A stretch of 54,502 bases of DNA from Saprospiraceae bacterium (GTDB lineage: Bacteria > Bacteroidota > Bacteroidia > Chitinophagales > Saprospiraceae), in assembly GCA_028285085.1 (NCBI GenBank), contig JANQQI010000108.1, positions 1-54,502 on the forward strand, in the 5' to 3' direction. Position 1 is the first letter of the stretch. Every line of letters begins with the position of its first letter. A program made the position numbers and the translations under genes. This document shows, piece by piece, positions 27,015 to 29,468 of the stretch. The notes below the pieces were generated by a model. The model ran no database searches. It saw only the letters and a program-made list of their open reading frames with translations, and had not been told where the DNA came from.

Positions 27015-27938
27015 TCAATTATTTTGATCAATATCTTCGACCACACTGAGTAAAAGATGGATGTCCTGAAAAAACTCGAAAACCAATTGAAAACTCACAT
27101 TAGTGCGAAAAATGTAAGGCTCCAGCAGATCCTTTGGCTCAGTAATGGCTAAATAAAGCTCTTGCTTCACAAAAGAAACGTAGATTTCCTTTCCAGAGTT
27201 TTCGCGATATTCCGTTAACACTTGCTGAATCCCTTCCGGGAGCAATCGATTGATCACCACCTCAGGGGTAATATACGTCATAAATACGCGCTGAAAGTCA
27301 GCGTTCAAATCTTTTTCGACTAACGCCCCGCCTTGTAAGGTCATTTTGCGAACACTGCGTGACAAGTACTGCTTATAGGCTCGGGGCAAAATGAGCAGTG
27401 TCCCATGATTTGGCTGCTTGATCTCCGAGCGCAGGAATACACCCCGAAAGACATAATTAAGCCGATTACGAACTCTAGACAGTTCTTTGACTCCGAGCTC
27501 GGATAGGGCAAAATCTAACTCGCCAATCTTACCACTGATCAAATCTTCGCCTTGATAAACCGGCGCCGGGCTACCAAAAATCTGGCTGGCCATAAAATGC
27601 TTTTTCTCAATTTTCCCTTTACTGTCGTAATGTAAAGTACCATAATTGATTCCTTCGTCGATAAAATCGAGGATCAGGTTGACAACGTTGGGCTTGAAGG
27701 TCTGGCGAAAGCGTTGGATGCGATATAGTAAATAAGTAATGTATAAGCCGAAAGGGAGCAAGAGCAGTAAACTCAGCACCAATACTTGTAGATAAAACTG
27801 GAGGAAAAGAACGATCCCGGAGAGGAGCACGGCACTTAAGAGGAGCCAAAGCAGACGATTCCGTTTGCGCTCCATTCTGACCAATTCAGGATGAATGGTG
27901 TGATTATAGTACTGGCGAAATTCTTCTATTCGCCGCAT
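27015..27938 (-). CDS. DUF3137 membrane protein
   Basis: A 307-residue protein matching the pattern I recall for DUF3137: an N-terminal EEFRQYYNHTIHPEL segment, two adjacent membrane helices (about 28-47 and 49-70), then a soluble region with GELDFALSELGV, VFRGVFLRSEI, IYVSFVKQELYLAI and LLSVVEDI. Function is unknown. It lies 19 bases after a putative ParA partner, in an apparent operon with parA, so it may be the membrane anchor or cargo of that system (inference). Confidence 0.78.
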   Translation of the reverse strand: MRRIEEFRQYYNHTIHPELVRMERKRNRLLWLLLSAVLLSGIVLFLQFYLQVLVLSLLLLLPFGLYITYLLYRIQRFRQTFKPNVVNLILDFIDEGINYGTLHYDSKGKIEKKHFMASQIFGSPAPVYQGEDLISGKIGELDFALSELGVKELSRVRNRLNYVFRGVFLRSEIKQPNHGTLLILPRAYKQYLSRSVRKMTLQGGALVEKDLNADFQRVFMTYITPEVVINRLLPEGIQQVLTEYRENSGKEIYVSFVKQELYLAITEPKDLLEPYIFRTNVSFQLVFEFFQDIHLLLSVVEDIDQNN

Positions 27939-27957: not shown

Positions 27958-28470
27958 TTAGTTTTGGCTATTATCTTGTGCCGCTTCGTAATTTTCGATA
28001 AACTTGGAGACCACGTCGCCGATAATATCTTTGAGATATGCCTTCTCTTCCTTGGCGATTTTCTTGAGGCGGGCCAACTTGGCTTTATCAAATACAAAGG
28101 TGACCCGCTTTTTAGATGGCACATTAACTTCCACCCGATCCAGATCATCGGTACGTCGGATTAAAGCATCAAGGCCTGAAAGTGGACGCATCCGCCGTCG
28201 GGAAATCACTTTACGGGTAGCCGTTTTACGTTGTTCGTTTTCACGTTTTTCTTCGATTGTATCCGTCAAAGCCTGCTCGAAAAGGGTTTCGAGATCAGAA
28301 GTAAAGTTCTTGGTAGAAGACCGCCGATTTTTAATAGCTCGCCGCGCGGGGGCGGTAGCTACCTCTTCTTTGGCATCCTGATCCAACAATGGACTCTCTT
28401 CCTGGAAGGCCTCGTTTTCGAGGCCGCCAAACAGACTATCTAATCCTGATGTAAATTTTTTCTTACTCAC
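27958..28470 (-). CDS. putative ParA partner with three ParB-N-terminus-like motifs and an RHH-like C-terminus
   Basis: A 170-residue basic protein, not assigned to a named family. Three 12-residue segments align without gaps: KKKFTSGLDSLF (3-14), TKNFTSDLETLF (53-64) and RMRPLSGLDALI (93-104). They resemble the N-terminal basic GLGRGLDALL motif by which chromosomal ParB contacts ParA. The linkers are charged and probably disordered. The C-terminus (about 120-163: KRVTFVFDKAKLARLKKI, then a second helix) looks like a ribbon-helix-helix fold. No ParB nuclease/CTPase or HTH domain is present. The start is GTG at 28470 with AGAAGGG just upstream. It lies 56 bases after parA. Confidence 0.7.
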   Translation of the reverse strand: MSKKKFTSGLDSLFGGLENEAFQEESPLLDQDAKEEVATAPARRAIKNRRSSTKNFTSDLETLFEQALTDTIEEKRENEQRKTATRKVISRRRMRPLSGLDALIRRTDDLDRVEVNVPSKKRVTFVFDKAKLARLKKIAKEEKAYLKDIIGDVVSKFIENYEAAQDNSQN

Positions 28471-28526
28471 GCCCTTCTATTCAAGTTAATTAAAGGAGTA
28501 TTACAAAAACCGGGCAGTGCGGCGGC

Positions 28527-29288
28527 TTAGGCTTCAACCATTTCAGTTCGTTCGACAATCTCTTTGCAGAGTGCCAAATAGTCTTTTGCACCGTTGCTCC
28601 GACGGTTATAACTGAAAATGTCTTGCCGTTGTGCGGGGGCTTCCGCCAACGCCACATTGTCTCGAATCAGGGTATTAAAGACTTTTTCTCCGAAATACTT
28701 TTTGATGGTATCAACGACGTCGCGATTTAGGACTTTACGCGCATCGTACATCGTCGCAATTACCCCACCGATGGTCAGCTTTTTATTCAAGCGGAAGCGC
28801 ACCTTATCGATGATCTGTTTGATCTTAGCCAGACCTTGTAACGCCAAGAACTCCGTTTGCAACGGAATATAAACGTAGTTACTACTGGTCAAAGCATTGA
28901 GCGTCAGCAGTCCTAAGGACGGTGGGCAATCAATGATGATGTAATCATATTCCTCGATCACTGTTTCAAACAGCTCGCGCATGATAAATTCACGCCCAGC
29001 TTCGTTGATGAGTTCCATCTCCGCACTGGATAAATCCAGAGTTGACGTAACCACATCAAAGCCTTCCCGAATGGTAAAAGGCACCAATTCAGACTCACCG
29101 CGAAGTGCTTCGTAAATCGTATATTTTTGACGGGGGATACCCAGAGAAAGTGTTAAATTCGCTTGTGGATCAAGGTCAATCAAAAGGACTTTGCGCCCTA
29201 ATTCCACTAGGCCGGCACCAATGTTAATGGCACTCGTTGTTTTACCTACACCACCTTTGTGGTTCAACAAAGAGATAATTTTTCCCAT
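28527..29288 (-). CDS. ParA-family ATPase
   Basis: A 253-residue deviant-Walker ATPase of the ParA/Soj type. Walker A KGGVGKTT at 11-18 includes the signature Lys11; LLIDLDPQANLT (Walker A') and YDYIIIDCPPSLGLLTLNA (Walker B) follow. The C-terminal FNTLIRDNVALAEAPAQRQDIF is typical of Soj-like proteins. It lacks the N-terminal HTH of plasmid ParA. No parB gene follows; instead comes an RHH-type protein with ParB-like motifs. It may therefore position something other than, or besides, the chromosome origin. Confidence 0.93.
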   Translation of the reverse strand: MGKIISLLNHKGGVGKTTSAINIGAGLVELGRKVLLIDLDPQANLTLSLGIPRQKYTIYEALRGESELVPFTIREGFDVVTSTLDLSSAEMELINEAGREFIMRELFETVIEEYDYIIIDCPPSLGLLTLNALTSSNYVYIPLQTEFLALQGLAKIKQIIDKVRFRLNKKLTIGGVIATMYDARKVLNRDVVDTIKKYFGEKVFNTLIRDNVALAEAPAQRQDIFSYNRRSNGAKDYLALCKEIVERTEMVEA

Positions 29289-29468
29289 ATCGTATGCTTA
29301 ACTTTTCTTCGGTTGTGAAAGTAATAATAATTGTTCATACTTGTAAGAATACATAGCTAAAATTATTGATTTTTAGTATATCAAATATGGAGGTTTTAGG
29401 TTATAATTTCCTGCAACAACAATTGAGCCAATTTTTTAATATGTTTTTTATCTAACGACCACTTAACT

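Follow-up and report, generated by a model that had tools for sequence, protein, structure and literature searches.

Several described partition systems pair a ParA-type ATPase with a partner protein. Our working model is the partner of plasmid TP228, a ribbon-helix-helix (RHH) protein whose N-terminal region binds ParA, according to the available part of PMC5393062. For the archaeal partner SegB, the accessible text of PMC12284271 reports the recognition of palindromes upstream of its own operon, together with scattered sites in ChIP-seq. For Myxococcus, the portion of PMC12462528 at hand locates a groove at the ParA dimer's edge, where four hydrophobic residues from the ParB peptide are seated, states that a central basic ParB residue helps ATPase stimulation, and describes two such groove sites per ParA dimer, at which linked peptides act with avidity. 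Searching the open-licence literature in PMC, we found no paper on the pair of genes described below, nor on any ParA partner with multiple ParA-binding motifs.

The pair is located in a contig of a Saprospiraceae bacterium, which was analyzed over its whole length of 54,502 nucleotides (hereafter the window; Table 1). It comprises a parA-like gene, whose product we call the second ParA, followed after a gap of 56 bases by the partner gene, both on the minus strand. A domain search of the second ParA yielded P-loop ATPase families alone at strongly significant E-values, and an N-terminal HTH domain, sought in the same search, was not found. The closest solved structure was that of Myxococcus ParA (8RAY, E=1.1e-61), and the closest solved structures were in general of the Soj/ParA types.

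Table 1. Features of the ParA-partner locus, with their positions in the window.
Feature	Position	Strand	Remarks
parA-like gene (second ParA), 253 aa	28527..29288	-	deviant Walker A NHKGGVGKTT near the N-terminus
Partner gene, 170 aa, GTG start	27958..28470	-	N-terminal part with three motifs, C-terminal RHH
Motif 1, partner residues 3-14, KKKFTSGLDSLF	28429..28464	-	
Motif 2, partner residues 53-64, TKNFTSDLETLF	28279..28314	-	opens predicted helix 56-89
Motif 3, partner residues 93-104, RMRPLSGLDALI	28159..28194	-	
Ribbon-helix-helix domain, about residues 120-165	27976..28113	-	R-x-T strand pattern kept
parA upstream region, common to a divergent GNAT acetyltransferase gene	29289..29468	-	no repeat array found
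DUF3137 gene directly 3' of the partner	27015..27938	-	Pfam DUF3137, E=1.5e-21

The original prediction, made from the letters of the window, held that the partner carries three 12-residue copies of a ParB-like ParA-binding motif, and these are located exactly where it placed them. We built a position-specific scoring matrix of 12 columns from the N-termini of 28 chromosomal ParBs of the same family and order, out of 30 examined, the ParBs of loci L095 and L097 being dropped for having no recognisable motif. The matrix was then scanned along the part preceding the RHH domain of 50 distinct full-length partners, each compared with 300 shuffles; these 50 were obtained from 56 distinct profile matches after discarding L017 and L026 (truncated) and L039, L040, L041 and L043 (outside the family). 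In the partner of the window, this matrix, drawn from chromosomal ParBs alone, ranked the motifs first, third and second, with scores of 13.5 (residue 3), 4.9 (residue 53) and 6.5 (residue 93) against 0.6 for the next segment, and the top three segments had p values of 0.003, 0.01 and 0.01 against shuffles, so that the motifs can be called ParB-like. Across orthologues, p<0.05 was reached by the best segment in 33/50, by the second in 43/50 and by the third in 45/50. The top three segments were exactly motifs 1 to 3 in 32 orthologues; in the other 18, one motif (16 cases) or two (2 cases) were displaced by another segment, which outranked motif 1 in just one of them.

We also matched the 50 distinct orthologues to motif patterns, composed after the alignment was seen: all three patterns were found in 47, and all three motifs in 49 by eye, the patterns having missed a visible motif 2 in L019 and L016. 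One partner, that of L073, has a degenerate motif 1 and intact motifs 2 and 3. Conservation of motifs 2 and 3, the point on which the original prediction had been made to depend, thus came out in its favour. Motif 3 is the best conserved, with an aspartate following the leucine or isoleucine in 50/50. An alignment of 24 sequences has eight invariant columns (K4, F14, L60, D101, L103, T107, R122 and A139), all of those before the RHH domain falling in or beside the motifs, which are kept amid fast-changing linkers. A possible fourth motif (e.g. GEDQLPGIRPLL) is present at about residues 19-30 in the partners of a clade comprising L058, L061, L064, L071 and L072 (40-51 in L061 as listed), where it outscores motif 3 with the ParB profile.

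The original prediction also stated that the partner has neither the CTPase nor the HTH domain of ParB, and neither was found in Pfam or NCBIfam with E-values up to 1. Membership of the ParB (Spo0J) family was considered and rejected, the N-terminal ParA-binding motif being present and both of these domains absent. The C-terminus, described at the outset as RHH-like, is indeed a ribbon-helix-helix that is closest to plasmid ParG by both profile and fold search. AlphaFold prediction of the partner alone (mean pLDDT 72, pTM 0.31) gave two confident C-terminal helices (129-142 and 146-169, block pLDDT 89-97) and a helix from 56 to 89 that begins at motif 2 and is confident in 61-80, the other blocks of the N-terminal part having pLDDT values of 42-69. 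The top fold match in Foldseek was ParG (1p94, probability 0.96, E=0.25), with CopG, CdbA, Arc and MatP among the matches; because of this E-value, the fold evidence alone is modest. Compared with the PDB, a profile of 24 orthologues retrieved the same ParG structure with E=8.6e-4. The Pfam ParG model fell below the cut-off on the partner of the window (E=0.055), and a search of 24 family members with E up to 0.1 matched ParG in 8 and RHH_3 in 6. In the partner alignment, R122 is found in 24/24 and T124 in 21/24 sequences, and the same R-x-T strand pattern is present in the partners of several plasmid relatives. In RHH proteins in general, the R-x-T strand faces DNA, and by analogy R122 and T124 of the partner would do so too.

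We then compared the residues expected to meet in the ParA groove. Of the six groove positions probed by mutation in Myxococcus ParA, as given in the available part of PMC12462528, five are hydrophobic in the ParA of the window (M91, L125, L127, L130 and L167), and, following the spacing of the hydrophobic positions of the ParB peptide, motifs 1 and 2 retain 4/4 and motif 3 retains 3/4, the first of these positions being taken by a proline in motif 3. The central basic residue is absent from all three motifs of the window and nearly so among orthologues (0/49, 0/48 and 1/50 for motifs 1, 2 and 3); it is present in just 13/28 ParBs too. Because this residue is missing from the motifs, binding to ParA is better supported for them than stimulation of its ATPase, as far as motif residues can indicate. 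The sixth groove position (L187 in Myxococcus) corresponds to ParA residue 162 (28803-28805 in the window), which is K in 49/49 second ParAs, the equivalent position in Soj being L, I or M in 24/25. The residue after the motif leucine is acidic in 47/49, 37/48 and 50/50 partners (motifs 1 to 3) and basic in 20/28 ParBs. We considered a charge-swap code that would insulate the two systems from each other and rejected it: three ParBs with D face a Soj with L, the single Soj with R has a partner with K, and the partners of plasmid ParAs that have K show N, S or D. As there is no covariation within Soj pairs, the K/acidic pattern stands as a difference between systems only.

To describe the distribution of the pair, we searched 150 Saprospiraceae genomes and found the partner in 91 of them (78 of the 129 of high quality). 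It is absent from the other 59 (51 of those of high quality) and therefore dispensable. In a draw of genomes from the class, 9/295 matched the partner: 2 belong to the family, and the other 7 matched weakly and over part of the profile. In a draw from the phylum, 6/247 matched, of which 3 are family members and 3 are weak matches. The 30 named loci come from Saprospiraceae or from metagenome bins labelled 'Bacteroidetes'. The second ParA was detected in 88/150 family genomes, all 88 of which also have the partner, and the genomes with a partner only (G133, G146 and G152) have partial or contig-start matches. In 87/88 genomes the partner is downstream of ParA, sharing its contig and strand and no more than 3 kb away (no more than 300 bases in 82), and both genes are retained 1.7 Mb apart in G082. 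The second ParA has a mean column identity of 79% over 21 family members.

In G082, G087, G149 and G151, single contigs carry the pair at megabase positions, so that it is chromosomal in these genomes; as the contig of the window is 54.5 kb long, the window's own replicon is not proven. A canonical ParA-ParB pair is found elsewhere in the window's own genome, and ParB was detected in 30/31 genomes tested, with and without the second ParA pair. The distance between pair and parB varies among the four large-contig genomes and so does not support a centromere linked to the origin or the terminus. The chromosomal ParBs of L095 and L097 (genomes G004 and G022) have no recognisable N-terminal ParA-binding motif, and Soj is present in both.

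The original prediction saw in the pair an unusual positioning system. The pair does not stand apart from known systems: the closest ParAs found outside the family are plasmid-borne and mostly have homologous one-motif partners of the RHH type. These ParAs are up to 63% identical to the second ParA, and in five of the six plasmid regions read, the gene adjoining parA encodes a one-motif partner of 85-102 aa (e.g. MAKKSFSGGLNSLLG). The five partners, from Flavobacterium, Adhaeribacter, Phocaeicola and Tenacibaculum (two), match the family profile with E-values between 3e-12 and 2e-15 (10 proteins searched); in the sixth region (L123), the neighbour has no match to it. Their assignment as RHH proteins is by homology to the family profile, Pfam giving ParG and Antitox_RHH below the cut-off for L124 and no RHH model for the other four. 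Three other relatives (L080, L081 and L083) have one-motif partners too. In a ParA tree, for which a usable Soj could be taken from 25 of the 30 ParB loci and in which bootstrap values were not fully settled, the 22 chromosomal second ParAs are united in a single clade (97/96) and are grouped with the plasmid ParAs at 87/72 (76/80 for the plasmid group itself), the 25 Soj being set apart by a 100/100 branch. On sequence grounds, the partner is a homologue of the one-motif RHH partners of plasmid partition cassettes, and the Saprospiraceae host has likely taken over a plasmid segregation module. Four f22 genomes (L084, L086, L087 and L088) encode a more distant ParA together with an RHH-type protein of 138-152 aa, in which two to three divergent motif-like stretches can be seen by eye.

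We searched for a DNA target of the RHH domain. Near the window operon, tandem, inverted and short-word searches found no centromere-like repeat array, and clusters of the AAGTAA type reach a maximum of 2 in the window, as in most shuffles. Upstream of parA, short-word arrays (AAGTAA or ATACTA type, p<=0.02) were detected in 4/9 plasmid or mobile relatives and in 1/48 chromosomal loci (L016), the latter about the chance level at this threshold; the test left out L073 (misplaced start), L039 (not of the family) and L030 (52 bases). Seven further loci, including the four f22 ones, had no significant upstream array. Since the plasmid relatives have one motif and an array in 4/9, against 1/48 chromosomal loci with an array, the motif appears to have been tripled and the array to have gone; very few independent events stand behind a tie between the loss of the array and the gain of motifs. 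Among the 30 named loci, clusters of the AAGTAA type reach 4 in L061, L067 and L072 and 3 in L077. A block ACATATTA..TTGGCTYAATTGTTG upstream of parA is common to the window, L003 (the same stretch as L051) and L078. In L058, L061, L064, L067, L071, L072, L074, L075 and L077, a palindrome CTGTGAGAA..TTCTYRCC lies about 25-55 bases before parA. It has one exact match per genome in 7/8 genomes and none in the eighth, and is a candidate operator or leader hairpin. Words of this clade palindrome lead the upstream k-mer enrichment, which is therefore due to near relatives. In all, the search found no centromere; a single operator, scattered sites or a cargo other than DNA would each fit this result.

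On balance we think it probable, if well short of secure, that a plasmid-type ParA-RHH partition cassette has been taken over by the Saprospiraceae chromosome, with a multi-motif partner that positions or segregates a cargo. The RHH domain would hold the partner dimer together and has most likely kept the ability to bind a specific DNA site. Each dimer, with the three motifs present in each chain, would display six short helices of the kind that docks in the ParA groove. ParA-ATP would coat the nucleoid and, by holding several motifs at once, tether the partner-bound cargo; ATP hydrolysis would then release ParA, so that the cargo is positioned or segregated as in ParA systems generally. As the repeat array seen in several plasmid relatives is missing from the chromosome, a single dimer with the tripled motif may provide the multivalency for which the array served on plasmids. 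The cargo is most likely DNA.

It is unlikely, in our judgement, that the RHH domain serves for dimerisation or autoregulation of the operon only and that the system, in the manner of McdAB, carries a protein or membrane complex, for instance one including the DUF3137 protein. The lack of a centromere array and the absence of the partner from 59/150 family genomes are compatible with such a cargo, as is the presence of a DUF3137-type gene 3' of the pair, on the same strand, in 16/30 named loci, some with otherwise different flanks (L058, L061, L064, L071 and L072). The DUF3137 protein has hydrophobic N-terminal stretches, as read from the sequence without a membrane predictor, and is a possible third component or membrane anchor. 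Against this reading, R-x-T is kept (24/24 and 21/24) and common to several plasmid relatives, and 14/30 loci have no DUF3137-type neighbour, although three of these (L057, L059 and L074) end too early for a neighbour to be seen. Whether the DUF3137 gene belongs to the system is uncertain, and as a cargo component its product is only a lead. We find it very unlikely that the pair is a plasmid-derived remnant, either a mainly autoregulated transcription unit or a means of titrating incoming plasmid partition systems. Close plasmid relatives do exist and the clade palindrome, found once per genome in 7/8, is operator-like, but the 79% identity of ParA and the motifs kept through changing linkers argue for an active motor. 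PADLOC, in which the partner and the DUF3137 protein had no match and ParA two weak ones, also speaks against a remnant; on the same result a defence or phage function was rejected. In PHROGs, the partner is weakly Arc-like (repressor) and ParA falls in the ParA-like partition family.

A different question is whether all three motifs act on ParA. That motif 1 works alone, motifs 2 and 3 being self-assembly or linker helices, strikes us as quite unlikely. The position of motif 2 at the start of the long predicted helix 56-89, the proline of motif 3 at the first hydrophobic position of ParB, and the 18/50 orthologues in which one or two motifs are outscored by another segment (motif 1 in just one case) would all fit such a division of roles. 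All three motifs are nevertheless picked up by an independent profile of ParB, conservation is highest in motif 3 (D in 50/50), and it is motif 1 that is degenerate in L073, with motifs 2 and 3 intact.

Returning to a plasmid-type cassette taken over by the chromosome, we put forward a further idea as possible but doubtful: on the chromosome, an array of sites occupied by many one-motif dimers would have been replaced by a single or dispersed site and a six-motif dimer, giving an avidity that is independent of CTP and of spreading. ParB gains its avidity from clamps. If the idea is true, the f22 lineage, with its two to three divergent motif-like stretches, RHH-type tail and no array, would have taken this step independently. 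To our knowledge, the number of ParA contacts that a cargo needs is an open question in ParA-driven transport, and related ParAs whose partners naturally have one or three motifs form a ready series for addressing it. For the Saprospiraceae, the pair means that a second ParA, with a partner of its own, is widespread on the chromosome alongside ParABS, and it is likely an example of a host adopting a plasmid segregation module.

Compared with chromosomal ParABS (Soj/Spo0J), the pair has the same kind of ParA-binding motif (LGxGLxALL type), but the Saprospiraceae partner is without CTPase and HTH domains, the second ParA falls in a separate clade, and both systems coexist in one genome. McdA-McdB and other ParA/MinD cargo systems likewise have a basic N-terminal partner peptide at the ATPase dimer interface, according to the available parts of PMC10241942 and PMC12204374; these describe one N-terminal peptide, whereas the Saprospiraceae partner has an RHH domain and three motifs. 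Archaeal SegA-SegB is similar in joining a chromosomal ParA-type ATPase with an RHH DNA-binding partner, a likeness by description in PMC12284271 rather than by sequence, and the accessible portion of that paper does not mention multiple motifs in SegB. The Bacteroidota plasmid cassettes (e.g. Flavobacterium pA5BP1), to which TP228 ParF-ParG is akin (ParF itself standing outside our comparison), have the same order of ParA followed by a small, homologous RHH-type protein; they differ in having one motif, 85-102 aa and arrays in 4/9, against three motifs and no array in 47/48 for the chromosomal loci. Assignment to canonical type Ib partition was considered and rejected: a ParA lacking an HTH domain and an adjacent RHH partner are both present, a repeat array was not found, and the location is chromosomal in the four large-contig genomes. 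The pair resembles the plasmid type in its anatomy, but because a centromere array was sought and not found, we do not file it as a canonical member of that type; it fits best as a chromosomal form of plasmid ParA-RHH partition with a three-motif partner.
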